NCBI RefSeq assembly: GCF_038725785.1
Contig: NZ_CP109796.1
Span: 6,138,501 to 6,202,500 of the forward strand
DNA: 64,000 bases
Direction of reading: 5' to 3'
From: Termitidicoccus mucosus
Lineage (GTDB): Bacteria; Verrucomicrobiota; Verrucomicrobiia; Opitutales; Opitutaceae
Position 1 is the first letter of the stretch; every line of letters begins with the position of its first letter. Below, piece by piece: positions 5,799-64,000 of the stretch. The position numbers and the translations under genes were made by a program. Under the pieces are notes generated by a model. It searched no databases. It was given only the letters and a program-made list of their open reading frames with translations, and was not told the DNA's origin.

Positions 5799-5822
5799 GG
5801 GGAGAGCGGGGGAGGGGAATCC

Positions 5823-7259
5823 ATGAGCGCCGGCGGTTTCACCCGCTGGCGGCGGTCCCTCGCGGTGCGCCTCAGCGTGTGGTTCGCGCTGCTGTTCGCG
5901 GTCGGGTTCACGGCGATTTTCGGATTGTTGTACTGGCTGCTCGGACAGCAGCTCGAGGCCCGCGAGCACGAGGCGCTGCGGATGCGTTTGCAGCAATACG
6001 CCGACATTTACGAGGCGCGCGGGCTGCGCGGTTTGCAGGAGCGGGTGTATGAGGACAGCCACACGCCGCACGTGCGCTCGCTCTTCATCCGGCTGATCGG
6101 CTCGCTCGGCGTGGTGTGGGTCAATGTGCCGCAGGGCTGGATCGAGCAGGATGCGCAACGCATCCAGGTGCCCGACGGCTGGGGCGGCTGGCAGGAGCGG
6201 CAGGTCTTCACCTGGCGCGTGCCGCTGGACGAGCAGGAGGACCTTGCCGTGCTCTCCACCGTGCTGCACAACGGCCTGCTGCTCCAGGTGGCGCGCAGCA
6301 CGGACAACCGCACCGCGTTGCTGGAGCCGCTGCGGCGGACGTTCATCTGGGTGGGCGGGTCGGTGGTGCTGGTGGGCTTCGCGGTCGGCATGCTCGCGGC
6401 ACGGCGCGCCACGCGGCCGATCCAGAATGTCGCCGACGCCGCGCGGCGCATCGTAAGCACCGGCGCGCTCGATGTGCGCGTGCCGCAGCCACGGAGCGAC
6501 GACGAGCTGGCGGAGCTGGTGCGCTGTTTCAACGCCATGCTGGAAAAAAACGCCGGGCTGCTGCGCGCGATGCGCGAGGCGCTGGACAATGTCGCGCACG
6601 ACCTGCGCACGCCGCTCACCAGCATGCGCGGCTCGGCGGAGCTGGCGCTGGCGCGCGGCGACGACACCGCGATGCGCGACGCGCTGGCCGACAACGTGGA
6701 GCGGGCCGACGAGGTGCTGCGGCTGCTGCGCGCGCTGATGGAGATTTCCGAGGCGGAGGCGGGCATGCTGAAGCTCGACCGGGAGCCATGCGACCTCGGG
6801 GCGCTGGCGGGCGCGGCGGCGGAGCTTTATTCGGACGTGGCGGAGGAAAAGCAAATCGCCCTCACGGTCGTCCCGGCGCCGGAGCCGGTGATTGTATCCG
6901 GCGACCCGATACGACTGCGCCAGGTGGCGGCGAACCTGATCGACAACGCGCTCAAATACACGCCGGGCGGCGGGCGCGTGACGGTGAGCGTGGGCAGGAC
7001 CGCCGACGGCGGCGCGGGGGCGGACGGCGGCCCGCGCGCATTGCTGGCCGTGAGCGACAACGGCCCCGGCGTGCCGGAGGCGGAGCAGGCGCGGATTTGG
7101 GAGCGGCTTTACCGCGCCGACCAGAGCCGCTCGCAAAGCGGGCTGGGGCTGGGGTTGAGCCTGGTGCGCGCCTTCGTCGAGGCGCATGGCGGCGCGGCGC
7201 GCGTGCGCAACGCGCCCGGCGGCGGGGCGGTGTTCGAGGTGGAATTGCCGTTGGAGTGA
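5823..7259 (+). CDS. sensor histidine kinase
   Basis: A 478-residue membrane kinase that should phosphorylate the regulator at 4998. Two membrane helices flank a periplasmic sensor of about 130 residues. A HAMP segment follows (RRATRPIQNVADAARRI). The phosphoacceptor helix is DNVAHDLRTPLTSMRG. The ATP-binding domain shows N box NLIDNALKYTPGGG, G1 DNGPGVPEAE and G2 SGLGLGLSLV. The start at 5823 is chosen because it is preceded by a purine-rich Shine-Dalgarno stretch (gggggagggg); an upstream ATG would translate the palindrome. Confidence 0.92.
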   Translation: MSAGGFTRWRRSLAVRLSVWFALLFAVGFTAIFGLLYWLLGQQLEAREHEALRMRLQQYADIYEARGLRGLQERVYEDSHTPHVRSLFIRLIGSLGVVWVNVPQGWIEQDAQRIQVPDGWGGWQERQVFTWRVPLDEQEDLAVLSTVLHNGLLLQVARSTDNRTALLEPLRRTFIWVGGSVVLVGFAVGMLAARRATRPIQNVADAARRIVSTGALDVRVPQPRSDDELAELVRCFNAMLEKNAGLLRAMREALDNVAHDLRTPLTSMRGSAELALARGDDTAMRDALADNVERADEVLRLLRALMEISEAEAGMLKLDREPCDLGALAGAAAELYSDVAEEKQIALTVVPAPEPVIVSGDPIRLRQVAANLIDNALKYTPGGGRVTVSVGRTADGGAGADGGPRALLAVSDNGPGVPEAEQARIWERLYRADQSRSQSGLGLGLSLVRAFVEAHGGAARVRNAPGGGAVFEVELPLE

Positions 7260-7283
7260 GGGCGTCCCCGCCGCCGCTCCTTT

Positions 7284-8246
7284 TCATTTTTTGCGCAGGC
7301 GGTTTTTGATTTTGGCCAGGAGAATGACGAGGTGGCGCGCGCGCCAGTGGAGGGATTCGGGAATGAACTGGTGTTTCTTGATGTCGAGCGCCTGGTCGAC
7401 GAGGTAGTCGAAGTAGGCGGCGGGGGCGAAGTGGCGGGCGTAGGCTTCGGCGGCGGCCTGCGCGATCGCGGCGTGGCGGTGCTCGTTCGCGACGAGCAGG
7501 GCCTCGAGGCGGTGGATTTCGTTTTCCCGGAGGATGAGCGCGCATTCCGACCAGTCGGGACCGCGCGGGCGTATCCAGTCATCGGATATGATGACGGGGG
7601 CTACGCCGATGCGCATGGACTCGAAGAGGCGGATGCTGGCGCCGCCGCTGCCGCGCGGGCAGATGGCGAACTTGGAGGCTTCGAGCAGTTCGACGTAGTC
7701 GCGTTGTTTTGGGGCCTTGCCGGTGTTGTCGTGGGTGAAGGCGTTGTAGGACGACGTGTCGCGGACAAGGATGTCGGGGCGCGCGAAGGTCTGCCTGAAA
7801 ATGGCGGCGCGCACGGGATGGCAGTCGCGTCCGGCGAAGGAGGCGAGGTGGAGCTTGGGTTTTTCCCAGGCGCGGCCGGGATGGTTTTCGATGAAGGGAT
7901 TTTTGTAGTCGGGATGGTAGAGGGTGTAGGCGCCGGAGCGGTAGCGGCGGCGGGCGGGGAGCTTTTTGTGAGCGTTGGTGTAGATGCCGTGGAGGAGGGG
8001 AAGGAGCTGCCAGGCGTCGGAGAGGGCAAAGCATTTGCCCGGATGGCGGTTGACGACAGGGTGGCTTCGCAAGCTCGCATACCAGTTTTCGGGACGGAGA
8101 TTGCCGACAAAGATGATGTCGGCTTCGTCCGGGGATTCCACGAGGACGTGGCGGCGGCTCGAAAGCGGCCAGAGCGAGCGGAGGAGTTCCTCTTGATGGC
8201 GCCAGGCGTCCGGGCCGGTCTCGCAACTGGTGACATGAATCTTCAT
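7284..8246 (-). CDS. exostosin-family (GT47-like) glycosyltransferase
   Basis: The last gene of the exopolysaccharide locus, 320 residues. The C-terminal half has SKFAICPRGSGGASIRLFES followed by IGVAPVIISDDW, which is the nucleotide-sugar-binding signature of the exostosin/GT47 family. The N-terminal half has DEADIIFVG and a aromatic-rich YTLYHPDYKNPF segment. It overlaps the upstream GT2 gene by 4 bases (ATGA), so translation is probably coupled. It should act in the cytosol or at the inner membrane face, adding one sugar of the repeat unit; donor and acceptor are unknown. Confidence 0.8.
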   Translation of the reverse strand: MKIHVTSCETGPDAWRHQEELLRSLWPLSSRRHVLVESPDEADIIFVGNLRPENWYASLRSHPVVNRHPGKCFALSDAWQLLPLLHGIYTNAHKKLPARRRYRSGAYTLYHPDYKNPFIENHPGRAWEKPKLHLASFAGRDCHPVRAAIFRQTFARPDILVRDTSSYNAFTHDNTGKAPKQRDYVELLEASKFAICPRGSGGASIRLFESMRIGVAPVIISDDWIRPRGPDWSECALILRENEIHRLEALLVANEHRHAAIAQAAAEAYARHFAPAAYFDYLVDQALDIKKHQFIPESLHWRARHLVILLAKIKNRLRKK

Positions 8247-24435: not shown

Positions 24436-25654
24436 TCAGAAGATGTTGGTGATCGAGAGGGTCACGACATGGCGGTCGTAGTCGCGGCCAAAATAGCGAC
24501 CGGGCTGAAAGCCGGAGGAGTCGTCATTGTTGTGCTGGTATTGGTAGCTCAGGCCGGCGCTCCAGTATTTATTGAAAGGACGATTGATGCTCAGGTGGAC
24601 CTGAAGCATCTGGTCTTTGCGATTGATGCCGCGGTAATCGATCCAGTTATAGGAAACGGTGCCGATCGCGGTGGTGGCGAGGCCGATGGACTCGGTGACC
24701 GTGGCGGCGACATTGGTGGTGGTGGCGGAGACATCGGAGGCATTGAGGGACATGTTGCGGCTCGCGGAGAGGGCGATGTTGGTGCGGGGACGGGCGTCCC
24801 ATGCGAGGCGAATGTCGCCGGTGAGGGTGTCGCCGCCGGTGTCGTTGATGCCGGGCGAATAGTTCTGGCGGTAGGAGAGGGAGGCGGAGCTTTCGAGCTT
24901 TGGGAAACGCGATTTCGGAGGCGCTGCCGATGACCTCGCCATAGACGGGGCGCGAGAGCGTGACGGAGAGCGCGTGGTCGTTCTGGTCGAGTTTCGCGCC
25001 GAGGTAGTTGTCGCCGGAACTCTGGGTGTCGGTATAAGTGTAGCCGAGCGAGAGATCGGTGCCGCGCAGGAAATCGTTGTAGTCGAAATAGAGGCGGTTG
25101 GTGAGCGTGTCCTGGTCGCTGTAGGTGTCGCCGTCGCGCTCGATGCCTTGATAACTGAAGGACTCGCGGATGGCGGTCTTGAGGCCGAGCTTGTAGGTGA
25201 AATTCAGGCTGCCGTTGAAGTGCTTGGCCGGGATGCGGTCGTTGGCGAAGTAGTCGATGTCGGTGCTTTCGCTGTAGCCAAGGGCGAAGGTCCCGTCGAT
25301 GCGCGCGCCGATGGCGGCGGGCAGGGAGATGCGGAGATTGGCGGAGAGGTTCTCGGCGTCATACTGGTCGTTTTCCTGATAGCGCACCACCGCGACGCCG
25401 GCATTGGCCGAGATCTCGCCGCGGCCGGCCTTGCGGAGGTACTGGAGCATCGGCTGGACGGAGATGTAGGTGTCGGGATCGTTGTCGATGGAGCCGAGAA
25501 AATAGGAATCGTAGCTGACTGCGCCGGTGGTTTGAAGAAGCAGGGAGCCTCGCGCGATTTCGGCGAATCCGAAAAGGCGGGGAGCGAGGCCGGGGGCGAC
25601 GGAAAAGGGCAATATGAGGGTCGCGATGGCCGTGATGCGGATTCGGAAATTCAC
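24436..25654 (-). pseudogene. outer-membrane beta-barrel protein of the EPS locus, one-base frameshift
   Basis: First gene of the locus, starting with GTG at 25654 and a signal-like segment. The 5' frame gives alternating barrel strands (for example LSLGYTYTDTQSSGDNYLG) up to ASEIAFPK near 24900. A second frame then continues KLESSASLSYRQNYSPGIND to the final NRPFNKYWSAGLSYQYQHNN and a C-terminal Phe (ITNIF). Total length is a multiple of three plus one base, so a one-base insertion in the CCCAAAG run explains it. Such barrels are common next to wza in Verrucomicrobia and probably shape export. Whether the break is real needs read data. Confidence 0.75.
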
Positions 25655-52511: not shown

Positions 52512-52868
52512 GGGGGTGTTCTGGATTCGACCCTTGGTTGGAGCACGCCGCTGCCGTTCGAGGATGAAGGTTGGCCTCGTTAATCATCCTTCAAAACAAT
52601 AATAGGCAACTACGAAGAGATGCCCTTGGCCGCCTAATAGCGCGGCCTCGTTTGCCCGGCGACACCTGCTAGCCGGAACAAGCGTCGACAGCAGGCATAA
52701 CGCATGGAGCCGCCCGCGGTCCGAGCGTCGTACACTTCATCCGGGGGATAGCCTGTGCTTAAGCGCGTGAAGTCGCGTGACAGAGGCGAAACAAACACTT
52801 CACTACAACGGTAGACGCGGCGCGTGAAGGTCAGGGGCACGCGGGTTCAACTCCCGCCACCTCCACCA
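52512..52868 (+). ncRNA. ssrA: tmRNA
   Basis: The 5' end GGGGGTGTTCTGGATTCGAC and 3' end GGTTCAACTCCCGCC then ACCTCCACCA form the tRNA-like domain; GGGGGUG pairs with CACCUCC as a 7-bp acceptor stem, and the CCA is encoded. The tag starts at about 52605 with GGC and reads GNYEEMPLAA, ending at tandem stops TAA TAG (52635-52640), so with the charged Ala the tag is probably AGNYEEMPLAA. It rescues stalled ribosomes together with SmpB. The 3' end is also the integration site of the element to the right. Confidence 0.95.
52831..52868. other. attachment site: shared end of ssrA and the integrase gene
   Basis: The last 38 bases of ssrA (T-arm and acceptor strand with CCA) are also the last codons of the integrase gene read on the other strand (VEVAGVEPACP and its stop). 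This fits an element that integrated into the tmRNA 3' end and brought a matching attP segment. The other junction should repeat part of this sequence beyond the right edge. Confidence 0.75.
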
Positions 52869-54084
52869 TTTTAGGAGATGCAAGGGCAGCATCTATTTGT
52901 TTAATATCAACGGTTTTCGCAACCGTTACGAAGTTTCTGACAAGCGTCAAAAATGCCCCGGGAATCGGGGTTTTTGCGCTGATTTGTGCGCATTCTGCTG
53001 CTACACCGTCCGGCGCGGCAATCCATGGGATTTTTCGGATTTCATCGTGATAACTATCCTGCGGGACCTCGGTGTAAATGTTCGCCGTGAGGTTCGCATC
53101 CGAGTGCCCAAGAAAATCCTGAGCGGCGCGCTGGTTGACTCCGTGCAGCACGCCCAGCGTCTGGAATGTTTTTCTAAACGCGTGGAAGTGCAGCACGCGG
53201 CCAAGTTCGTCCGCGTGCGCGATGCCCGCTTTTTCGAGGTCGGACATGAGCGTGTCCCATTTGGGCATTGTCCCAAACACCAGCGCGCCCGGCTTCGCGT
53301 CGGCGGGCTTCGCGGCGCGCAATTCAGCGGCAAGCATGGGATGCAAGGGAAGTGACCGATTCTCGCGGTCCTTGAGCGTATAACCGCGCAAACGCACGTG
53401 CGGGCGGTCCCCGTCAAGGCGCAGATCATCCCACACCAGCGCCTTGATTTCTTTTTTCCGCTGCCCGGTGTAAAGCAGCGTGAGGTAAACAAGGCGGCGT
53501 TGCGGCGCAACGGCCAGCAGCCGGCGCAGTTCGTCCGTCGCAAAGGCGCGGGATTCGTGGACTTTTTTGCCCCGGGTATCCACGACATCGACGGTGCCCA
53601 GCGGATTAAACGCCACGCGGCGGAGCCGGACGAGCCACGAGAGAAAGGCCACCAGCGCGGCCTGATATTCGCGCAGTGTTTTCGCGGCCATTGTCTGCTT
53701 TGAGCGCCAGCGGATGAACTGATCGGGCCGGATGTCGGCGAGGCGCTTCCAGCCGGTTTCGGCCAGGATGCGCGTGATGCGGTATTCCGTGTCACGCGCA
53801 TGCTTTCCCGTCTTTTTGCGGGCGCGGATGTCGGCGATGTGCTCGGCGAGCAAAACCGCCAGCGGTGTGCCAGCGGCTTCGCGGTGCGCCTTTGGGCTGA
53901 TGATGCCTTCCGCCTCGCGCTGCTTCTCAACGATGATGTCTCGCAGGCGTTTGCGGGCTACGAGCTTGTCAGGAGTGCCGAGCGCCACGGTGCGGGGTTT
54001 ATCGCCACGGGCGAGGGCGTAGCGGCCATAATAGAGCCTAGAGCGTTTGCCCCTGCGCTTGGGGCGGTAAACGTATTCAGTCAT
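52831..54084 (-). CDS. int: tyrosine recombinase (integrase)
   Basis: 417 residues. The arm/core-binding part has DTEYRITRILAETGWKRLAD and TLREYQAALVAFLSWLVRL. The catalytic set is complete: Arg209 (YTGQRKKEI), Lys238 (YTLKDRENR), H301-x-x-R304 (HAFRKTF), His327 (LGHSD) and Tyr337 (IYTEV). The last dozen codons lie inside ssrA, so the gene's 3' end doubles as the attachment site. It starts 4 bases after the 131-residue gene, so both are in one leftward transcript. Confidence 0.95.
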   Translation of the reverse strand: MTEYVYRPKRRGKRSRLYYGRYALARGDKPRTVALGTPDKLVARKRLRDIIVEKQREAEGIISPKAHREAAGTPLAVLLAEHIADIRARKKTGKHARDTEYRITRILAETGWKRLADIRPDQFIRWRSKQTMAAKTLREYQAALVAFLSWLVRLRRVAFNPLGTVDVVDTRGKKVHESRAFATDELRRLLAVAPQRRLVYLTLLYTGQRKKEIKALVWDDLRLDGDRPHVRLRGYTLKDRENRSLPLHPMLAAELRAAKPADAKPGALVFGTMPKWDTLMSDLEKAGIAHADELGRVLHFHAFRKTFQTLGVLHGVNQRAAQDFLGHSDANLTANIYTEVPQDSYHDEIRKIPWIAAPDGVAAECAQISAKTPIPGAFLTLVRNFVTVAKTVDIKQIDAALASPKMVEVAGVEPACP

Positions 54085-55934: not shown

Positions 55935-56315
55935 TCAATAGGCGCGCAATTCGAGGCCGGGCACGCGGGTGAAGTGTTTCGCGTTGTTCGAGACCAGCGG
56001 CAGCGCATGCGCCAGCGCGGTGGCGGCAATCCAGATGTCGTTGTCGCCGATGTGCAGGCCCCTGCCTTTCAGCAGGCGGCCAATGCGCGAGGCATGCCAC
56101 GCGACGCGCTCATCAATTTCCAAGACGGTGAACATGTCGAGCGCGGCGGCAACCTCGGCGGGGCTGTCGCAACCCTCGGCAAACTCCGTCCAGCATATGC
56201 GCGAGGTGTAGAGCGGCGCGTCGAGATTGGCGTCGATAAAGGCGAGCGCCCGGCGCTGCCACGGCTTGCCGCCCTGCCCTGCGAGGCGGATGATGAATTC
56301 GCTGTCGAAGAGCAT
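55935..56315 (-). CDS. vapC: VapC-type PIN-domain ribonuclease toxin
   Basis: 126 residues with the PIN active-site acids: Asp4 (MLFDSEFIIRL), Glu44 (CWTEFAEG) and Asp in IGDNDIWIAATAL, and a final SNNAKHFTRVPGLEL. Family members cut tRNA or rRNA. Its ATG overlaps the VapB stop by one base (TGATG), the usual coupled arrangement. In the provirus it may stabilise the element in the host chromosome or block other phages. Confidence 0.9.
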   Translation of the reverse strand: MLFDSEFIIRLAGQGGKPWQRRALAFIDANLDAPLYTSRICWTEFAEGCDSPAEVAAALDMFTVLEIDERVAWHASRIGRLLKGRGLHIGDNDIWIAATALAHALPLVSNNAKHFTRVPGLELRAY

Positions 56316-56554
56316 CAGGCGTGGCGGAGGTCGCGGGAGCGGGTGCGGTTGGCGACGGCGCGCTTGACGGAGGTCCAGTCCACGCCGCGCCCGAACTTGC
56401 CGGATTCCACGGCGCGCTTCAAATCGGCGGCGGTGGCCTTGGCGGGCGGCAGCGTGATACGGCGCACAACCTCGGAGAACGACTCACCCGGCCGGCGGGT
56501 GGACTTCAGGCGGTTGTAGGCGTCGAGTTCGAGGGAAATGGTTTTACTGGCCAT
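56315..56554 (-). CDS. vapB: VapB-type antitoxin
   Basis: 79 residues from the ATG at 56554. SKTISLELDAYNRLKSTRRP followed by ESFSEVVRRI is a ribbon-helix-helix DNA-binding domain of the VapB class seen with PIN toxins. The C-terminal part (SGKFGRGVDWTSVKRAVANR) would wrap the toxin. An upstream in-frame ATG at 56611 is less likely because the added residues are not conserved. The repeat at 56630 is just upstream and may include its operator. Confidence 0.85.
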   Translation of the reverse strand: MASKTISLELDAYNRLKSTRRPGESFSEVVRRITLPPAKATAADLKRAVESGKFGRGVDWTSVKRAVANRTRSRDLRHA

Positions 56555-56629
56555 GCACAGACCATGCACAGACATGCCGGGGATGTCAAACCCAGCGGCG
56601 CCCAAGACCAAACCCGAACCGGCTGAAAC

Positions 56630-56793: not shown

Positions 56794-57321
56794 TCATTTG
56801 GCACGGGCGGCGCGCCGACTGCGAGGGACACGAACGCCGAGGCGGGCGAGGGTGTGAAGGGCGAACAGGGCGACGGCGGCGATGGCAGCGAACTTCACCC
56901 AAGAGGGAAGGGAGGCCGTCACGGCGTTGAGGCCGGCTGCAAGCTGGCGGGGGATGTCCTTCACGGCATCAACGACGGCCTTGTCCTTGATGTCGTCAAT
57001 CTTGCCTTGAGCGGAATCGCGGGCGGGTTCCTGAAAGGCGGACATGTCAATATCCACTTCCCCAAGATAGTCCTTGATGTCGCCGATGGTGGCACCGGCA
57101 GGGACGGCGGGCGCGTTGGCGTCGAACGCGGCGAGCGCGGCGGCGCCGTGAACGCGAAGGAAGGTGTCGCGCAAGGCGAGGTAGTCGGCGGCGGCGATCA
57201 CGCCGGCCCCGGCGTCGGCACGCGCCTGCGCGAGCAAAAGCGTGTCGTGCGCGGCTTGGTCCACGATTGTTTGCTCCACCGCGGTGTTTCCGCCCCAAGT
57301 GAATGGATTCCACCAACTCAT
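56794..57321 (-). CDS. virion membrane protein candidate with C-terminal anchor
   Basis: 175 residues. It starts MSWWNPFTWGG, then has helical segments with VDQAAHDTLLLAQARADAGA and a negatively charged centre. The single membrane helix is near the C-terminus (WVKFAAIAAVALFALHTLA) and is followed by a basic tail (RVPRSRRAARAK). This tail-anchored layout is shared by three other products of the cluster. No known family is recognised. It is the last gene of the structural run before the left repeat copy. Confidence 0.7.
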   Translation of the reverse strand: MSWWNPFTWGGNTAVEQTIVDQAAHDTLLLAQARADAGAGVIAAADYLALRDTFLRVHGAAALAAFDANAPAVPAGATIGDIKDYLGEVDIDMSAFQEPARDSAQGKIDDIKDKAVVDAVKDIPRQLAAGLNAVTASLPSWVKFAAIAAVALFALHTLARLGVRVPRSRRAARAK

Positions 57322-57346
57322 TTTTTTGATGCCCGATGATGAACGC

Positions 57347-57634
57347 TCATTCCTTGCGTTCGATTTCCGCCAAGAGGTTTTCCGCCTCGGCTTTCTGTGC
57401 AGGCGACATGGCCTTCGGATCTACCAAAGCAAGCAGCCGCACTTTGCTGTATGTATGCCACGCGCCCTCAAGGCGGGCCATCCGGCGCTCATTGCGCCAC
57501 ATGAACCAAGCGAGAACCGCGCCGGTCGTCCCGCCTTGGATAAGCGAGCCCAAGACGCCGCCCTCCGCTGATTGCGCGATGGTGGCAAGCAGCGGCGAAA
57601 AGGAAACGGTCAGCAGGACGATGGCGTTGCTCAC
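57347..57634 (-). CDS. small two-helix membrane protein, holin candidate
   Basis: 95 residues. Two hydrophobic segments (AIVLLTVSFSPLLATIA and LIQGGTTGAVLAWFMW) are followed by a charged C-terminal helix (RNERRMARLEG and on). Size and layout fit a class II holin, but no homology is claimed. It overlaps the 62-residue gene by 4 bases (ATGA). Confidence 0.55.
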   Translation of the reverse strand: MSNAIVLLTVSFSPLLATIAQSAEGGVLGSLIQGGTTGAVLAWFMWRNERRMARLEGAWHTYSKVRLLALVDPKAMSPAQKAEAENLLAEIERKE

Positions 57635-57819
57635 GACTCCCAGTGCGCCCCGGTGAACTGGCCGTCAGCCTTGGCTTTCAGCGATTCGTATTGTGCGCGC
57701 ACGGCGGCCTGTTGCTCAACCGTCACCTCGCCCTTGCGGACAAGTTCGGTGAGCGTGGGAAGCAGCGCGTCAATCAGCTTCAGGGACGCCTGAATGGCGA
57801 TGAGTATTGAATTTTCCAT
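57631..57819 (-). CDS. small helical protein
   Basis: 62 residues: NSILIAIQASLKLIDALLPT and a charged helix (ELVRKGEVTVEQQAAVRAQY). No family recognised. It overlaps the holin candidate downstream by 4 bases, so translation is probably coupled. Confidence 0.55.
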   Translation of the reverse strand: MENSILIAIQASLKLIDALLPTLTELVRKGEVTVEQQAAVRAQYESLKAKADGQFTGAHWES

Positions 57820-57834
57820 GGTTCGCGGGGCGGG

Positions 57835-58239
57835 TCAGTTTTTGATGTAGCCGGCCGCCTTGACGACTTCCTGTTGCAGCGTCGTGAGGGCGGCCATGAG
57901 AGACTTCCGGTTTTCCTCAGTCGGGAGTTTTTTATATAACTCCACGGCGGCGATGACGGAGCCTATGGCGAGCTTCGCGTTTTTCCGCACGAAGTCGGCG
58001 GCCTGTTTGACTTCGGCGGCGCGGTTCGCGTCCGCTTTTTCGAGGTCCGCCCGATTGTCGTATTCCCATTTCACAAACGTATCAAACACGACATAAGAGG
58101 AGACAACGGCGGCCTCGGCGTTATATAGAAGCGCGTCCCCGTCGTAAACGCCGCCCGGCGAGAGCGACTTGCAGCCGCTGCAAGCCGAGAGGCAGAAGGC
58201 GGCGATGATGAGGGCGATGGCGACGAGATTGTTTTTCAT
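57835..58239 (-). CDS. lipoprotein, possible outer spanin
   Basis: 134 residues. The signal peptide VAIALIIAAFCLSAC has a lipobox with Cys20 (LSAC). The mature part is helical with charged segments (WEYDNRADLEKADANRAAEV). A lipoprotein beside a holin-like gene recalls lysis cassettes, in which an outer-membrane lipoprotein fuses the two membranes. The domain itself is not recognised. Confidence 0.65.
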   Translation of the reverse strand: MKNNLVAIALIIAAFCLSACSGCKSLSPGGVYDGDALLYNAEAAVVSSYVVFDTFVKWEYDNRADLEKADANRAAEVKQAADFVRKNAKLAIGSVIAAVELYKKLPTEENRKSLMAALTTLQQEVVKAAGYIKN

Positions 58240-58274
58240 GGGTTTGGGTGTGATGGGTTATGAGTCAGGCGACG

Positions 58275-58844
58275 TTATCCCTGAGTGTGGACGCCGGAAA
58301 CAACCCACGTGTTGTGGTCGGGCATGGGGGTGAGTGTAATGTCGGTGCCTTGTCCCAAGTTCGGAGGGCCGCCGCTCCAGTCCCACATGCTTCCGCCATT
58401 AAACGTCTGTCCCCGGAGATTTTCACCACTAAAGCTCAGGCTCAGGCTCGTCCAGGCATTCTGGAGAATGGTGATTCGAATAGGCCCCGTGGCACTCTGA
58501 ACGGGAGCGATGGCAAGAACCGTCGTGGCCATTCCGGTATTGGTGGCGTCGATTACAACCCACTGCCCGGACTGGGCGTCGAACATGGCCCCCGTCCCGC
58601 CGTCAACATAACGGAGGGTAAGCCCGCCACTGCCGCCGCCGGCCTGCAACGCGGCAATGGCCGACTCGGCACCGTTCATGCGATTGCCAAGCTGGCCGAT
58701 GGCAGCGGCGTTTTGGCCGATGGCAGCGGCGTGCTGGTTGATGGAGGCGGTGTTTTGTTCCACCTGCGGACGGAGGGAGTCGGCGCTGTCCTCGGGATAG
58801 GAGCAGATGCCGACGCGGTTGATTTGTTCTTTCGAGATAGCCAT
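58275..58844 (-). CDS. fibre-like protein with coiled coil and beta-rich end
   Basis: 189 residues. Residues 28-60 hold near-heptad repeats of INQHAAAIGQNAAAIGQLGN, a trimeric coiled-coil pattern as in viral fibres. A Gly linker (AGGGSGG) leads to a beta-rich C-terminal domain (YVDGGTGAMFDAQSGQWVVI to VVSGVHTQG). It is likely a vertex fibre or receptor-binding part together with the neighbouring spike. No known family matched. Confidence 0.65.
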   Translation of the reverse strand: MAISKEQINRVGICSYPEDSADSLRPQVEQNTASINQHAAAIGQNAAAIGQLGNRMNGAESAIAALQAGGGSGGLTLRYVDGGTGAMFDAQSGQWVVIDATNTGMATTVLAIAPVQSATGPIRITILQNAWTSLSLSFSGENLRGQTFNGGSMWDWSGGPPNLGQGTDITLTPMPDHNTWVVSGVHTQG

Positions 58845-58850
58845 GGTGTT

Positions 58851-60077
58851 TTATCCGGCGGGGCCGTAGATTTCGATTTCGGAAAGGGACGGGGCTGCGA
58901 TGTGCGCCTTGACCTTCTGTGTGGTCCTGCCGGAAAAGATGATGCGTTCCTCGTGGTAGACGCCGGTGAAGACAAACTTCAGCCAGCGCGCCTGCACGAA
59001 GCCGACGCCAAAGAATTTCGAGTAAACCGGCTGGCCGTTGACCACGGCGCGGATGGACTCGCCGCTGTCAATCATCTCCCAGACCACGCCGTCGGCGGAT
59101 TTGTAGATCTGCACGGTCGCGGGCGCTTCGCTGTTGGCGTTCGTGTTGGTTCCGCTGACTGCAACCATCGACTTCAGGATGACACGCGTGATAGTCTTGG
59201 CCTCGCCAAAATCAACCGCCACGCCGCCGTTGTTGTTGAACTTGACCTCACTCGACGGATTGCGGTCGAAAAGCTGATAGGTGCCGCCGGACTTGACCTT
59301 GTCTCCGTAGATGAAGATGCCGTCTCCGTTGGCGCTGGCATCGGAGTTCATCGCGGGGAGAATGAGCGCTTCGTTTTGCGCGGCGTTGCCGACGATGGGC
59401 TCGGAGAGGCCGGCGGCGACGTAGGTGACCACCCAGTAGCGGATGCGGCAGCGGCCGGCGCTCGCGGCGGCGCAGGACACGTCGATCTGGTCGGAGAACG
59501 GCAGGCGCGTGATGCCGTCGAGAGCGAGGCCGATTTCACGGGAGGGCGTCTTGACATTGTCGTAGCTGTTGGCGCGCCAGTAGGCGATTACGGGAGCCGG
59601 ATCATCGTCGGTTTTCTCGGCGGCGAGCCAGACTTCGCGGCGGCCTTCCACCCCGGGAACAAGAAGCTGCCATACTTCGTCGGCGAGTTCGAGCGTGCCT
59701 TCAACCGCAGTGGACGCCTGACTGGCAAGCTGCACGTCCTGCTTGACGGTTTCATGCAGGCGGTGGTCATTGATGGTAACGAATCCGGTGTAGAGGATGC
59801 CGGTGAGAGGCTCGGCCCCGCTGTTGCGGACCGCGATCCGGCGGAAATAGTAACGGCTCCCGGACGCGACGGGCAGCTTGTTATATTCGAGGGCCAGCGC
59901 GATGTCCCACGGGAAAAAGTTGGTGTTGTCGTCAATCGCGAGTTCGAGCGGACCGTTGGCGGCGGCGATGTAGGCAAAGTCGCCGTAGCCGTCGAAGCTG
60001 GCGTGCCTGCCCGGCTCGATATTGAACCGGAAGCATTGCAGGGGCGCGGGATTGGATTGGCCGGGAGTGAATGACAT
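58851..60077 (-). CDS. spike-like structural protein with discoidin-like C-terminus
   Basis: 408 residues. The N-terminal half is beta-rich (FRFNIEPGRHASFDGYGDFA; IAVRNSGAEPLTGILYTGFV), a pattern seen in capsid-associated proteins. The C-terminal 140 residues (FDRNPSSEVKFNNNGGVAVD; ARWLKFVFTGVYHEERIIF; APSLSEIEIYG) look like an F5/8 discoidin domain, which often binds sugars. The cell-binding spike of a PM2-type virus is the best analogy by position and size. It sits 6 bases downstream of the tail-anchored gene at 60084. Confidence 0.65.
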   Translation of the reverse strand: MSFTPGQSNPAPLQCFRFNIEPGRHASFDGYGDFAYIAAANGPLELAIDDNTNFFPWDIALALEYNKLPVASGSRYYFRRIAVRNSGAEPLTGILYTGFVTINDHRLHETVKQDVQLASQASTAVEGTLELADEVWQLLVPGVEGRREVWLAAEKTDDDPAPVIAYWRANSYDNVKTPSREIGLALDGITRLPFSDQIDVSCAAASAGRCRIRYWVVTYVAAGLSEPIVGNAAQNEALILPAMNSDASANGDGIFIYGDKVKSGGTYQLFDRNPSSEVKFNNNGGVAVDFGEAKTITRVILKSMVAVSGTNTNANSEAPATVQIYKSADGVVWEMIDSGESIRAVVNGQPVYSKFFGVGFVQARWLKFVFTGVYHEERIIFSGRTTQKVKAHIAAPSLSEIEIYGPAG

Positions 60078-60083
60078 GGGAGG

Positions 60084-60563
60084 TCAGCGTTTTTTGCGGC
60101 GGAAAAGGAAGGCGAAGCCGATGACCATGACGGCGATCATGCCGGCGATGGCATAGGTGCGGTTCGTGCCCGCAGACGTGAGCGAGCCGGCCGCTTGTTG
60201 CGTAAAGGCAAGCGCGGTGTCCATGCTCTGCCCGGCGAGCTTCGCGTTGTTCTCCACCATGGCGTTTGCGCCGGCCACGACGGCGTCGGCGGTCGCGGAC
60301 GCGCGGTTGATGCCGTTCAACGCGATTTCGCTTTGCAGAATGCTGGCGGCGTCAATGCTGGACAGCGCGCGCGCCACCACATCGGCGGAGAGGTCGTTAT
60401 TGATGGTCGTCCCGGCACCGAAAACCACGCCGCCATCCTTCGCGACCATGGAGTCCATGGCGGAGATGCCCTCGCCCTCGGCGTTTGCGTTGCGCGAGTT
60501 GTCCGAGTAGTTGCTGGAGGAACTGGATTTATTGCTTCCGAAAAGTCCGCTTAACAGGCTCAT
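60084..60563 (-). CDS. tail-anchored virion protein candidate
   Basis: 159 residues. It has a Ser/Asn-rich N-terminus, a helical middle with Ala-rich segments (QSEIALNGINRASATADAVV) and one C-terminal helix (YAIAGMIAVMVIGFAFLF) followed by RRKKR. It is 3 bases from the next gene upstream. This layout recurs at 60567, 61042 and 56794 and would suit anchoring to an internal viral membrane. Family unknown. Confidence 0.7.
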   Translation of the reverse strand: MSLLSGLFGSNKSSSSSNYSDNSRNANAEGEGISAMDSMVAKDGGVVFGAGTTINNDLSADVVARALSSIDAASILQSEIALNGINRASATADAVVAGANAMVENNAKLAGQSMDTALAFTQQAAGSLTSAGTNRTYAIAGMIAVMVIGFAFLFRRKKR

Positions 60564-60566
60564 GGG

Positions 60567-61025
60567 TTATTTCCTCCGGCGACGGGTAAAGATGAGGGTG
60601 ATGATGATGGCGACAACGCCGATGGCCCCGGCGATGCCGAGCGTCGTGACGTTCAGCCATCCTGAAGCGCCGGACGTGCTGAACGCGCCGCCTTCCTTTT
60701 GCGTGACCGCGGTGGACTCGGCGTAGCCGCCCTGGTCCGCCTTCGCGTTTGACGAGGTGGCAGTGGCTTCGGTGGCGTTTTTCGCGTCCGTGGTCTGCGT
60801 CTCGTCTATCTTGGCCATGATGGTGCCGGAGCCGAGATTGCGGATGTTGTTGCCGAACTTCGTCTGCATCGTGCTCTGGAAAGAGGATGCAAACGATGCC
60901 GACGCGCTCGCCGCGATGTCCTTGATGTTTACCATGCCGGAATCTCCGCCCTCGCCGGAGCCGCCTGCGGATTGCCCGCCGCTACCTCCGCCGAAAAAGC
61001 CTTTGATTGTGCCGAGGATGTCCAT
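60567..61025 (-). CDS. tail-anchored virion protein candidate
   Basis: 152 residues. A Gly/Ser-rich N-terminus (GFFGGGSGGQSAGGSGEGGD) precedes an Ala/Thr-rich middle. The single C-terminal helix (VTTLGIAGAIGVVAIIITLI) ends in TRRRRK. Structure is parallel to the adjacent gene at 60084, although the sequences differ, so the two may be old duplicates. No family recognised. Confidence 0.7.
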   Translation of the reverse strand: MDILGTIKGFFGGGSGGQSAGGSGEGGDSGMVNIKDIAASASASFASSFQSTMQTKFGNNIRNLGSGTIMAKIDETQTTDAKNATEATATSSNAKADQGGYAESTAVTQKEGGAFSTSGASGWLNVTTLGIAGAIGVVAIIITLIFTRRRRK

Positions 61026-61041
61026 GCGGTCACCATGACGG

Positions 61042-61329
61042 TCAGCGGCGACGCCGAGAGAACAGGAGTGCGCCGAGGCCGAACAGGAGAACGCCTCCGA
61101 AAACGGCGATGATGATTTTATTGATGCCGCCGGTCTGCGCGGCTGGCGCGTTGGCGGCGGGCTGGCCCGTGCTCCCGGGATTAGTCGGGTTGAGCGTGGT
61201 GGGCTGCGGGGTGGGCGTGGCTTGCTGTCCGTATTTGGCGCCGATGATGTCGCCGACTACGTCGAGACCCTTGGTCAGGATGCCGGTCCACTCAATGCCG
61301 TTGGCGGCGGTGTTTGAATTATCTGCCAT
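61042..61329 (-). CDS. small tail-anchored virion protein candidate
   Basis: 95 residues. The N-terminus (NGIEWTGILTKGLDVVGDII) is helical, followed by a Pro/Thr/Asn-rich linker, then one membrane helix (IIIAVFGGVLLFGLGALLFS) and RRRR at the very end. It lies directly downstream of the capsid candidate in transcription order. Third member of the same layout in a row. Confidence 0.7.
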   Translation of the reverse strand: MADNSNTAANGIEWTGILTKGLDVVGDIIGAKYGQQATPTPQPTTLNPTNPGSTGQPAANAPAAQTGGINKIIIAVFGGVLLFGLGALLFSRRRR

Positions 61330-61410: not shown

Positions 61411-62325
61411 TCAGGCGAGCCCGGGGGATTGCTGTTCGATGACGAAGGTGATCTGCGAGCTGGCGCTCTTTTCCATGATCAGTTCGAACTGGTCGGATGG
61501 CTTCAGGTCGAGACGCTCGGTGATTTGCTCGGTCATGTTCAGGATGACAGGCCACACCGTGCTGACGGTGCCGTCCGCGTTGAGCAGGGGAACCTTGCCG
61601 TGCTTGGCGAATTCCATGGCAAGCTCGGGTTGCGCGGCGGTCTGCGTCACGTCGTAGACGTCGATGCCTTTGTGGCGGAGGATGACGCGCGTCGGCAGCA
61701 CGTTGCTGAACATCCAGAGGCGGGCGAAGGGCCGCGTGCGCGGGAGCAGGAAGTAGCTCTGGCGCCCGGCGCCGATGGTGTCGGTCTGGCGGACTTCGCG
61801 CACGAAGATCCCGAAATACTGGCCCTTGTCGTCCACGTTGGCGACGTTGTCCACTGACGAGACGGCGCGGATGTCGAAGAACGTGGTGGCGGCCGGGCGG
61901 GCAACCGTGATGCGGAATTGCACCTCGGGAATGCCGCGCAGGTCCCACGACGTGGCTTCCTCGCCGAGGACGGAGGCGGCAAGCGGGTTGCTGAAATAGA
62001 TGGTCAGCGCGCCCATGCCGGTTCCGTCTGCGGCTCCGTTTTGCAGGTAGCCGAGGATGTCCTGCCGGGTGAGCAGGTCTTCCGCGGTGAATTCGCGAAG
62101 CACTTGCGTGCCGATGACGATTTCCACCTTCTGGATGGCGGCGATGATCTGTTCCCGCGTGGCGGGCGCAGGCGTGGAGAGCGCGCCGGACTGCCCTTGC
62201 TGGACGAAGAGCGTGAAATCGTGCAGGCGGATGTTGCCCGGATGATAAATCGTCCGGGTGCCCGTGGTGCCGGGAGTCGGCAGCGCGGACATGTTGGTGA
62301 GAATAAACGGCGAGCGGAAGGGCAT
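61411..62325 (-). CDS. major capsid protein candidate, PM2 P2-like double jelly roll
   Basis: 304 residues, all beta-rich, no signal peptide or membrane segment. The first half has AIQKVEIVIGTQVLREFTAE followed by DLLTRQDILGYLQNG and LTIYFSNPLAASVLGEEATS, which lines up in order with PM2 P2 (a strand, VELDGRLL-type turn, DLI helix, then a V-S-F-H-F-V-R-P strand). In the second half, RLWMFSNVLPTRVILRHKGI and ELAMEFAKHGKVPLLN and the final LDLKPSDQFELIMEKSASSQ also follow the P2 order. P2 is about 270 residues, so length is compatible. I aligned from memory, by eye; structure prediction is needed. Confidence 0.72.
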   Translation of the reverse strand: MPFRSPFILTNMSALPTPGTTGTRTIYHPGNIRLHDFTLFVQQGQSGALSTPAPATREQIIAAIQKVEIVIGTQVLREFTAEDLLTRQDILGYLQNGAADGTGMGALTIYFSNPLAASVLGEEATSWDLRGIPEVQFRITVARPAATTFFDIRAVSSVDNVANVDDKGQYFGIFVREVRQTDTIGAGRQSYFLLPRTRPFARLWMFSNVLPTRVILRHKGIDVYDVTQTAAQPELAMEFAKHGKVPLLNADGTVSTVWPVILNMTEQITERLDLKPSDQFELIMEKSASSQITFVIEQQSPGLA

Positions 62326-62373: not shown

Positions 62374-62529
62374 TTAGGCGGAGGGCGTGACCTTGTTGGT
62401 GATGGACTTCACCGCGTCGGCGGCGGGACTGAGGAGGCTGGCGACGAAGCCAAAGGACAGGGCGGCGATGCCACCGAGGACGAAGGACACGGCCATGGGG
62501 ACCGTCAGGTATTTCTTGATTTTGCTCAT
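62374..62529 (-). CDS. 51-residue membrane protein
   Basis: The real start is the ATG at 62529. One helix (MAVSFVLGGIAALSFGFVASL) is followed by an amphipathic tail (SPAADAVKSITNKVTPSA). It lies just upstream of the capsid candidate in the same direction. Small membrane proteins of this size are part of the PM2 and tectivirus virion membrane; the role here is inferred from that. Confidence 0.6.
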   Translation of the reverse strand: MSKIKKYLTVPMAVSFVLGGIAALSFGFVASLLSPAADAVKSITNKVTPSA

Positions 62530-62630: not shown

Positions 62631-62786
62631 CGCGGGCTACAGCGTGCCGCCTTCAGATAGCTTGTTTTCGCGGATCGGGTCGCGATGCGGGCCGATCCGC
62701 TTTGGATGAAAACCAATCAGGCACGGCAAACAGGCGCAAAAAACACTCCACCAGTGACAGTCCGGAGGTTTTGCGCCGCCGCCATG

Positions 62787-62945
62787 TCACGCCGCAGATG
62801 CAGCGGACAAGTGCGGCAGGCCCATCACGGCCACCGCCCGCCGCGATCGTTCGAGGCGCTTGCGGCATGCGGGCGTCGCCGACGTTTGGCGGCCTGTGAC
62901 GCGGCGCCCGCATCCGCACGCGCAGAGTGCCACAAAGCGTGACAT
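62787..62945 (-). CDS. 52-residue Cys-ribbon protein
   Basis: Begins at the ATG at 62945. SRFVALCACGCGRRVTGRQT then PACRKRLERSRR shows four Cys (C8, C10, C12, C27) and a basic helix. I have seen this CxCGCGR-x(n)-ACRKR pattern on phage proteins, often at the end of or beside C5-cytosine methyltransferases. It overlaps the end of the methyltransferase gene by 121 bases in another frame, so it could be a remnant of a longer methyltransferase C-terminus or a separate binder. Confidence 0.6.
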   Translation of the reverse strand: MSRFVALCACGCGRRVTGRQTSATPACRKRLERSRRAVAVMGLPHLSAASAA

Positions 62946-63460
62946 GCCGCGGCACTGGAACTGAAAATAGCGAAGAACCAAAACTCTGTCGCCATGCATG
63001 TCCGCTCAACATCGTCCGGCATGTCGCGACGGTCGATGACAAGGCACGTGCCGTCACGGCTTCCAAACTGGAACGTGCGAAGCCGGGATTGCCTGCCGCC
63101 GCACTCGGCGGCGTTGAGGTTGAAGCGTTGCACGGTGTAGCCGCTGGCGTCGATGTCCGGCACGCCGGGCACGTTCTCAAGCAAAAACCATTCTGGAGAT
63201 GCTTCCTCCACGACGCGGGCATATTCGCGCAAAAGCTCAACGCCAGCCCCGGTCGGTTCAGTGCGCCGGGCTTTGCTGAAATCCTGACAGGGAGAGCCGC
63301 CAATCACGCCGGCAAATGCGCCGCTCGGCGGATGAAACTCCCGCACGTCGCCACCCCAGACGATGTCAGGCCCGCGCACGACGCAAAAGCCTTCCGCTTC
63401 GAATCCACGGCCCAGCAAATCCGCTCCGGGGAAAACCGATAGTATTAAATTATTTCTCAT
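62825..63460 (-). CDS. C5-cytosine DNA methyltransferase, shortened
   Basis: About 210 residues from the ATG at 63460. Motif I is SVFPGADLLGRGFEAEGF, motif IV GGSPCQDFS (catalytic Cys58), motif VI LLENVPGV and motif VIII RQSRLRTFQFG. After this the usual target-recognition domain and motifs IX and X are not found; the tail is a 60-residue low-complexity stretch in a frame that overlaps the Cys-ribbon gene. Without motif X the fold would be incomplete, so activity is doubtful unless another chain supplies it. A longer upstream frame to 63562 crosses the right repeat copy and is rejected. Confidence 0.8.
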   Translation of the reverse strand: MRNNLILSVFPGADLLGRGFEAEGFCVVRGPDIVWGGDVREFHPPSGAFAGVIGGSPCQDFSKARRTEPTGAGVELLREYARVVEEASPEWFLLENVPGVPDIDASGYTVQRFNLNAAECGGRQSRLRTFQFGSRDGTCLVIDRRDMPDDVERTCMATEFWFFAIFSSSAAACHALWHSARADAGAASQAAKRRRRPHAASASNDRGGRWP

Positions 63461-63463
63461 TTG

Positions 63464-63592
63464 TTGAAGTGTGACGCAGCGATCGCGCTTGCCCGCCGGC
63501 GTGACACACCAGGCTGTTGCCTCACCCAGCTCAGTCACGGTGTGACGCGGCCGGCGTGACAAACCCAGGGCCCGTCACGCCGGCTACGTCAC
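63464..63592. repeat. 129-bp inverted repeat, right copy
   Basis: Reverse complement of 56630-56758 with five mismatches and no indel. It lies between the methyltransferase start and the end of the 42-residue gene, whose TGA stop codon falls in the repeat. Together the copies bracket the 6.7-kb structural block. Confidence 0.95.
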
Positions 63593-63717
63593 TGCGCTAC
63601 AAACCAATGCCAGATGGCGAGGCCGATGATAACCGGCACGGACCTGATGAACGCCCCGGCTACGAAGCCGACTGAAACCGCGACGATGTCGGCGATGACG
63701 ACGAGTATGTTTTTCAT
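63589..63717 (-). CDS. 42-residue membrane protein
   Basis: Starts at the ATG at 63717, whose ATGA overlaps the stop of the putative ATPase gene, so translation is coupled. Two hydrophobic stretches (ILVVIADIVAVSVGFVAGAF and SVPVIIGLAIWHWFVAQ) fill nearly the whole chain. Its stop codon is in the right copy of the 129-bp repeat. A longer frame to 63849 is open but lies in the ATPase gene and is not preferred. Tiny membrane proteins linked to the packaging ATPase gene occur in PRD1/PM2-type viruses. Confidence 0.6.
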   Translation of the reverse strand: MKNILVVIADIVAVSVGFVAGAFIRSVPVIIGLAIWHWFVAQ

Positions 63718-64000
63718 GGTGGAGGAAATTTGCCCCGTTGAATCAGGTGCGAGCCGTCCGGCGCGCCGAATTTTACACAGTAAAGGAACTCGTATTTTTT
63801 GAGTTCCGTCGCCTCCACCATGCGCGGTTCCGCCCATTCTTCGCCCCATATCTTGGCGCTGCCGGGCGACTGGCGGAAGAGAAGCAGCTTGCCGAATTGA
63901 TCGCGCTGGATGGGGAGGAGCACGGTGGCGCGGTGCCCCATGATGTGCAGGATGTGCCCGGCGTGGCGGACGCGGGTGAACAGGTCAGTGAACTCGACGC
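63714..64000 (-). CDS. C-terminal part of putative genome-packaging ATPase (FtsK/HerA-like)
   Basis: The open frame continues past the right edge; about 95 residues are visible. VEFTDLFTRVRHAGHILHIM leads to VLLPIQRDQFGKLLLFRQSP, then VEATELKKYEFLYC. This matches the end of viral A32-like/FtsK-HerA packaging ATPases: a histidine-rich helix, a P-x-Q-R-x(2-3)-D/K-type sensor strand, a L-L-L-F-R-Q strand and a final L-x-x-Y-E-F-L. Walker motifs would be to the right. Alternative: another P-loop protein of the virus. Confidence 0.5.
   Translation of the reverse strand, partial: VEFTDLFTRVRHAGHILHIMGHRATVLLPIQRDQFGKLLLFRQSPGSAKIWGEEWAEPRMVEATELKKYEFLYCVKFGAPDGSHLIQRGKFPPP

Follow-up and report, generated by a model that had tools for sequence, protein, structure and literature searches.

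Genes at the locus

The window analysed here is a stretch of 64,000 nucleotides of the Termitidicoccus mucosus genome (NZ_CP109796.1), to which all coordinates refer unless stated otherwise. Towards its end lies a block of minus-strand genes in the order small transmembrane protein, capsid protein, 61042, 60567, 60084 and spike-like protein; the three genes after the capsid gene, named by their lower coordinates, are together called the trio. The features of the block and of its border are as follows.

52845..52874, plus strand: attL, the tmRNA 3' end, direct repeat with attR (repeat comparison)
52831..54084, minus strand: tyrosine integrase, 417 aa (Pfam Phage_integrase, E 4e-15)
56794..57321, minus strand: protein TA4 with a C-terminal transmembrane (TM) segment, 175 aa, 17-residue tail, outside the trio (open reading frame and hydrophobicity scan)
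57347..57634, minus strand: 95-aa protein with an N-terminal hydrophobic segment (open reading frame translation)
57835..58239, minus strand: probable lipoprotein, 134 aa, LSAC lipobox judged by eye
58275..58844, minus strand: protein of 189 aa, perhaps an additional spike or fibre, with 95.8% identity in a second provirus
58851..60077, minus strand: P1-like spike/penton protein, 408 aa (profile comparison)
60084..60563, minus strand: P10-like membrane protein, 159 aa, C-terminal TM and RRKKR (family HHalign with PM2-group P10)
60567..61025, minus strand: P8-like membrane protein, 152 aa, Gly-rich N-terminus, C-terminal TM and TRRRRK (gene order and architecture)
61042..61329, minus strand: P3-like membrane protein, 95 aa, C-terminal TM and RRRR (gene order, weak profile ranking)
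61411..62325, minus strand: P2-like major capsid protein, predicted double jelly roll, 304 aa (family HHalign, Foldseek)
62374..62529, minus strand: small TM protein of 51 aa occupying the P7 position; inner start picked by eye
63714..64000, minus strand: P9-type packaging ATPase, C-terminal part; 175 aa, start beyond the window and picked by eye (family HHalign)

The open reading frames of the capsid, trio and spike genes are intact. By its size and position, the product of 57347..57634 may be holin-like. The 189-aa protein has only weak matches in PHROGs (E 0.09-0.11), and the 408-aa spike-like protein has a weak F5/8 type C (lectin-like) match, under the Pfam cut-off.

These genes belong to a provirus of ~16.2 kb inserted into the tmRNA gene of the host (52512-52868), at its 3' end. 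The second repeat, attR, lies at 69014-69043 in extrapolated window numbering, ~5 kb past the window end; the two copies are identical at 29 of 30 bases and share 24 exact bases. The integrase gene overlaps the end of the tmRNA gene, and its product scores under the cut-offs of the NCBIfam recombinase models. Past the window end are a D12 methylase gene and a 606-aa gene, possibly for replication, whose product has an H-x-H-x-H stretch and matched nothing in Pfam. Genes for a PIN-domain toxin and a VapB-type antitoxin also lie inside the provirus (55935-56575), and between the ATPase and P7-like genes (62653-63562) there are overlapping open reading frames, one with a C-5 cytosine methylase match.

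The same genome carries a second, diverged copy of the provirus (region L004), whose capsid protein is 61% identical, and a third copy is present in a genome of the same genus (G001). Positions 57345-58846 of the window share 90% DNA identity with 5814-7309 of the second provirus, against ~71% over the aligned part of the two capsid genes; this difference suggests that a spike/lipoprotein/holin-like cassette may have been exchanged recently between the co-resident proviruses.

Relationship to PM2-type viruses

Among 252 Opitutaceae genomes searched with a distant capsid relative, 13 had matches, from which 17 elements, not independent draws, were taken. One of the genomes (G500) holds four different PM2-like elements on four contigs (L035, L038, L041, L044). 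In HHalign comparisons, P2 of five known phages was matched by the capsid profile of the 17 elements with a probability of 99.6% (E 1.1e-24 over 252 columns). The ATPase profile, built from 12 of the 17, matched P9 of four phages at 98.6% (E 1.4e-15, 151 columns), while three mismatched control pairs reached at most 0.2%. An AlphaFold2 model of the capsid protein, made from two sequences and of mediocre quality (pLDDT 56.8, pTM 0.48), had PM2 P2 (2vvf) as its best Foldseek match among solved structures (E 1.2e-9), with a poor whole superposition (rmsd 16.9, TM-score 0.32-0.36). Realignment covered mainly residues 1-171, the first domain, with 2vvf at Z 8.5 over 126 residues and poxvirus D13 and a PBCV-1 chain as the best rows (Z 11.2). 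By profile and predicted fold, the product of 61411..62325 is a PM2 P2-related capsid protein of the double jelly-roll type.

The spike group of the window (3 elements) aligned at 97% with the protein that follows P10 in 12 other elements; this larger group matched the P1 proteins of PM2 and Cr39582 at 69%, the fNo16 and PE002 proteins at 90% and Jorvik P1 at 0.3%. Matched directly to the proteins of the same phages, the window group reached at most 0.6%. Compared with PM2 ORF h, the protein encoded upstream of the ATPase gave no match (HHalign 0.07%, 8 elements against 4 phages); in several elements, genes upstream of the ATPase encode a hydrophobic segment.

Sequence identity between the capsid protein and those of Corticoviridae is very low. 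The 304-aa protein had no usable match in PHROGs, Pfam, the phage collection or the sequences of solved structures, and no relatives were accepted from the viral contig collection or the phage collection, where one search gave only four matches, to Lak phages at E 0.7. A search of the phage collection with 60084 gave no match. Genome contigs yielded nothing with the single capsid protein and one locus with the alignment. Across the phylum, 3 of 387 genomes had a match, namely the window's own, G315 and G338; the last was dropped, as it falls inside a peptidase-like gene (judged from the translation) with no viral neighbours. For the trio, PHROGs and Pfam held nothing useful (best E 0.39, and an LPXTG anchor model at E 0.01, under its cut-off).

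In the preferred reading, the window contains most of an integrated PM2-like virus of the Vinavirales type. In the identification of the trio as PM2-type virion membrane proteins we have high confidence.

A C-terminal helix with a short basic tail

A first-pass annotation had singled out four minus-strand genes, 61042, 60567, 60084 and 56794, whose products end in RRRR, TRRRRK, RRKKR and RSRRAARAK, and translation of the open reading frames confirmed their coordinates and C-termini. In a Kyte-Doolittle scan, each trio protein has one C-terminal hydrophobic helix followed by an Arg/Lys cluster: the helix ends 7 residues before the C-terminus in 61042 (tail LFSRRRR) and in 60567 (FTRRRRK), and 5 residues before it in 60084 (RRKKR). 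The 56794 product had been thought to repeat this scheme. It does have a single C-terminal helix, but its looser tail of 17 residues takes it outside the strict filter defined below, it is encoded apart from the trio near the other operon end, and it has no significant match to the trio profiles; its likeness is confined to the helix. A C-terminal-TM protein was assigned to the TA4 class in 8 of the 17 elements.

How often such an arrangement arises elsewhere was gauged with a strict filter (a single hydrophobic segment from residue 30 or later, a tail of at most 12 residues and at least two Lys/Arg in the last 8). It is passed by all three genes of the trio, by 1 of 285 host genes (twenty 20-kb stretches, 400 kb of the same genome) and by none of 46 genes in window positions 1-52500, and a looser version allowing multi-span proteins by 9 of 285, all denominators being approximate because genes were called by a simple home-made codon-composition rule. 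When the 2.4 kb following the capsid gene were scanned mechanically, three such open reading frames were found in 10 of the 17 elements, two in another 5 and a single one in 2, which makes 42 rather than 51 because charge and a single TM were both required. The antisense strand of the same 17 stretches held one altogether, and among 320 host stretches 6 had one and none had more.

The trio follows the capsid gene in the same order in 17/17 elements. Its members were picked by C-terminal TM and position, so that the presence of a TM was a selection criterion and the charge of the tail was not; the P10-like proteins of L034, L038 and L043 come from the gene map, where position identified them, and not from the scan, and 11 of the 17 P8-like proteins were found with the codon-composition filter, the other six and the P3-like protein of L044 without it. 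At least two Lys/Arg occur in the last 12 residues of 50 of the 51 proteins (all P3-like and P8-like, 16/17 P10-like), and Asp/Glu in 3/51. Exactly one hydrophobic segment is present in 47/51, with a second, weak one in the other 4. The helix lies at most 16 residues from the C-terminus in 17/17 P3-like, 17/17 P8-like and 14/17 P10-like proteins; in the three exceptions, all P10-like, the tail is 28 to 40 residues long. As far as these sequences tell, the conserved trait is a C-terminal anchor with a short basic tail, and the long Arg runs are peculiar to the window copy; the two closest orthologues end in RRS and RKR (61042), RGK and KNK (60567), and RK and RKH (60084).

The P10-like proteins vary in length from 152 to 451 aa across the 17 elements (e.g. 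L011 7002-8357), and by eye the long forms contain repeated helical-looking blocks.

Correspondence to P3, P8 and P10

In PM2 (AF155037), the gene order is P7, P2 capsid, P3, P4, P8, gp j and P1 spike; gp j is equated with P10 following the Jorvik record, in which P10 is noted as gpJ. As in the window, three proteins with a single C-terminal TM and a basic end lie between capsid and spike: P3 (104 aa), P8 (75 aa) and gp j (279 aa), with short tails ending in MRGNK, IKRK and SKGVN, respectively. PM2 differs in having P4 between P3 and P8 and a host of another phylum, and the Opitutaceae tails are more basic and often Arg-rich. The order in the Rhodobacter phage Jorvik (OP588643), P7-P2-P3-P8-acetyltransferase-P10-P1, is also like that of the window, where a 3-base gap replaces the acetyltransferase gene between P8 and P10; the last 12 residues of each Jorvik trio protein include one or two basic ones. 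Jorvik integrates, with an annotated attP (OP588643; PMC10589892, in the sections consulted). The same anchor plan is found in all 15 P3, P8 and P10 proteins of PM2, Cr39582, Jorvik, fNo16 and PE002, each with one segment, one to three Lys/Arg and no Asp/Glu in the last 12 residues. These five phages amount to about four independent cases, as PM2 and Cr39582 are near-identical in the trio, and P8 of fNo16 and PE002 and P10 of fNo16 (gene 6771-7220) were assigned by gene order.

At the sequence level the three proteins fare differently. The 60084 family matched PM2-group P10 at 95% in HHalign, and still at 89% without its last 27 residues. For the 61042 family against P3 and the 60567 family against P8, values of 15.9% and 18.9% with the anchor fell to 0.4% each without it (not significant), so P3 and P8 of PM2 are not significantly alignable whereas P10 has profile homology. 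When 48 phage proteins were ranked against query families stripped of their anchors, the 60084 family placed three P10 proteins first (E 3.8e-14 to 1.8e-8; an fNo16 spike-like protein labelled P10 is also on the list and is absent from the ranks given), the 61042 family placed three P3 proteins first (E 0.0008-0.012, weak), and no significant match emerged for the 60567 family. Homology of 60084 to P10 is thus supported and that of 61042 to P3 weakly so, while 60567 would be matched to P8 by order and architecture only.

PM2 has eight membrane-associated proteins, P3-P10 (PMC5656799), and P3, P8 and P10 are conserved across Vinavirales, as stated in the consulted part of PMC9502842; for PM2-like phages the literature lists them as structural or membrane proteins (PMC9502842, PMC10589892). 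Mass spectrometry of a Jorvik preparation ranked P3 third in abundance among the viral proteins, and P10 is described as having no known function (PMC10589892, sections consulted). In a 2007 survey of PM2-like prophages, again consulted in part, P8 was present in 62% and P10 in 77% of elements (PMC1950889). On the strength of these published data, the trio is read as virion membrane anchors; very probably, 61042, 60567 and 60084 are PM2-type virion membrane proteins, and they would be located in the virion in this host too. In this respect, the order and architecture of P3, P8 and P10 lend good support to the first-pass proposal that these are virion membrane proteins.

Proposed topology and path of assembly

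Each trio protein would be made in the cytoplasm and inserted in the cytoplasmic membrane via its C-terminal helix. Its N-terminal part would remain at the cytoplasmic face and dock capsid trimers, and the short basic tail would end on the far side, the future vesicle lumen, and touch the packaged DNA. As integral proteins of the vesicle, lying between capsid and genome, the trio could then couple capsid, membrane and genome while the particle pinches off. For PM2, in the parts of the literature consulted, P3 and P6 were suggested to template or register capsomers on the membrane, and contact with nucleic acid ahead of pinching off was proposed for the phage-specific area of the membrane (PMC6356626). 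We give slightly better than even chances to an arrangement with DNA-facing basic tails and N-terminal parts directed toward the capsid. The set had originally been described as facing the capsid, a description that probably suits the N-terminal domains and probably not the basic tails.

The opposite topology, with basic tails at the cytoplasmic side, in the future outer leaflet, touching the capsid, and N-terminal domains in the lumen, is possible but clearly less likely. Charge speaks for it. By the positive-inside rule, the more basic flank of a helix stays cytoplasmic; the last 12 residues average 2.7, 4.6 and 3.2 Lys/Arg in P3-, P8- and P10-like proteins, and the 15 residues before the helix 1.3, 0.3 and 1.8, so the rule would keep the tails in the cytoplasm, against the preferred topology. 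However, 48 of the 51 proteins have no hydrophobic segment in their first 35 residues even at a lenient threshold (the 3 exceptions being weak), and up to ~400 P10 residues would therefore need signal-less export. In E. coli ElaB and YqjD, too, a Gly-rich helix of a similar kind precedes a positively charged patch that terminates in di-Arg, and Fis1 fitted with their anchors is still functional at the yeast mitochondrial surface, meaning that its N-terminal part is cytosolic (PMC5525287, consulted in part). The likeness to these proteins is of the anchor only, as the DUF883 domain of ElaB and YqjD had no Pfam match in the trio at E up to 1.

Returning to lumen-facing tails, it is a tentative extension that in PM2-like viruses the three proteins downstream of the capsid gene, whose N-terminal parts are unrelated, converged on a common C-terminal design of an anchor with a DNA-holding basic tail, that the length-variable, helical-looking part of P10 (152-451 aa) is a spacer between membrane and capsid, and that the trio is a minimal coupler working without a procapsid; we regard this combination as speculative. 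The tail pattern makes a specific test of topology possible.

Other readings of the trio

The trio might instead be viral membrane proteins that act in assembly or lysis and are absent from the virion. Lysis modules too typically hold small membrane proteins; in the sections of the Jorvik report consulted, P8 is the one PM2 homologue undetected in particles (PMC10589892). We consider this unlikely. The trio sits after the capsid gene in every element and not in a downstream lysis position, P3 and P8 are annotated as structural in the PM2 record AF155037 (gp j has no structural label), and the PM2 virion entry 2w0c includes P3 among its chains.

The suggestion that the trio derives from one ancestral duplication finds its evidence in the anchor. 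Over their full length, the P3 and P8 families matched at 87% in HHalign, but over 16 columns, and in the one pairwise signal P8 and P10 of the window matched by BLASTP at E 1.1e-6 without and 2.5e-5 with composition correction, a score reached by none of 300 shuffles. Without the last 27 residues, family-profile probabilities within the trio were 0.02-0.05% (at most 0.41% for genus-level profiles), and the match of window P8 and P10 without the anchor fell to E 0.007, with its score reached by 69/300 shuffles; in the two sister elements, even the full-length score was reached by 257/300 and 73/300. With the anchor removed, profile comparison, BLASTP and shuffles thus leave the duplication unsupported, and we consider paralogy very improbable. 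The part common to the trio is the anchor, which could have arisen by convergence.

NCBIfam models (LPXTG_anchor at 24.0 bits on 61042 and 16.5 bits on 60084, cut-off 15.9; PVV-CTERM at 23.1 on 60567, cut-off 27) suggest that the trio are surface proteins which the host secretes and that their ends are sorting signals of the LPXTG or PEP-CTERM type. This reading was rejected as extremely unlikely, as the LPxTG motif occurs in 0/51 trio proteins, a PEP string near the C-terminus in 1/51 and a hydrophobic segment in the first 35 residues in 3/51, all weak, and the genes sit within a viral structural block. Since LPXTG_anchor exceeds its cut-off on 61042 and 60084, automatic annotation may nevertheless call them cell-wall-anchored surface proteins, and standard annotation can thus mislabel virion proteins of the trio.

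Known systems and significance

Vinavirales prophages in Verrucomicrobia and the conservation of P3, P8 and P10 are already published (PMC9502842, seen in part). The clade A prophages of that study, associated with Verrucomicrobia, are likewise proviruses with a PM2-type capsid protein and ATPase; they were described as extremely divergent and possibly degenerate, whereas the window element has both att repeats and open genes. The terms transmembrane, positively charged, tail-anchored and C-terminal are absent from the main text of PMC9502842. In the parts of the literature covered, no mention of the shared basic tails was found, and we do not firmly claim that they are unreported. A similar architecture occurs in FLiP (Finnlakeviridae), where the protein after the capsid gene has a C-terminal TM ending in TRKK; FLiP is an ssDNA phage of another family.

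The coupling of capsid, bilayer and genome in phages with an internal membrane is poorly known. The present analysis brings together 17 PM2-type elements found in 13 genomes of Opitutaceae, in which P3, P8 and P10 have one end design common to very diverged members.

Two observations lie outside this argument. In element L039 (3-1469), neighbouring genes in the spike position have nearly identical first 25 residues and are a probable tandem duplication. Elsewhere in the window, a predicted tRNA-Tyr at 24907-25000 has the anticodon ATA, which is unusual for bacteria, where GTA is expected.
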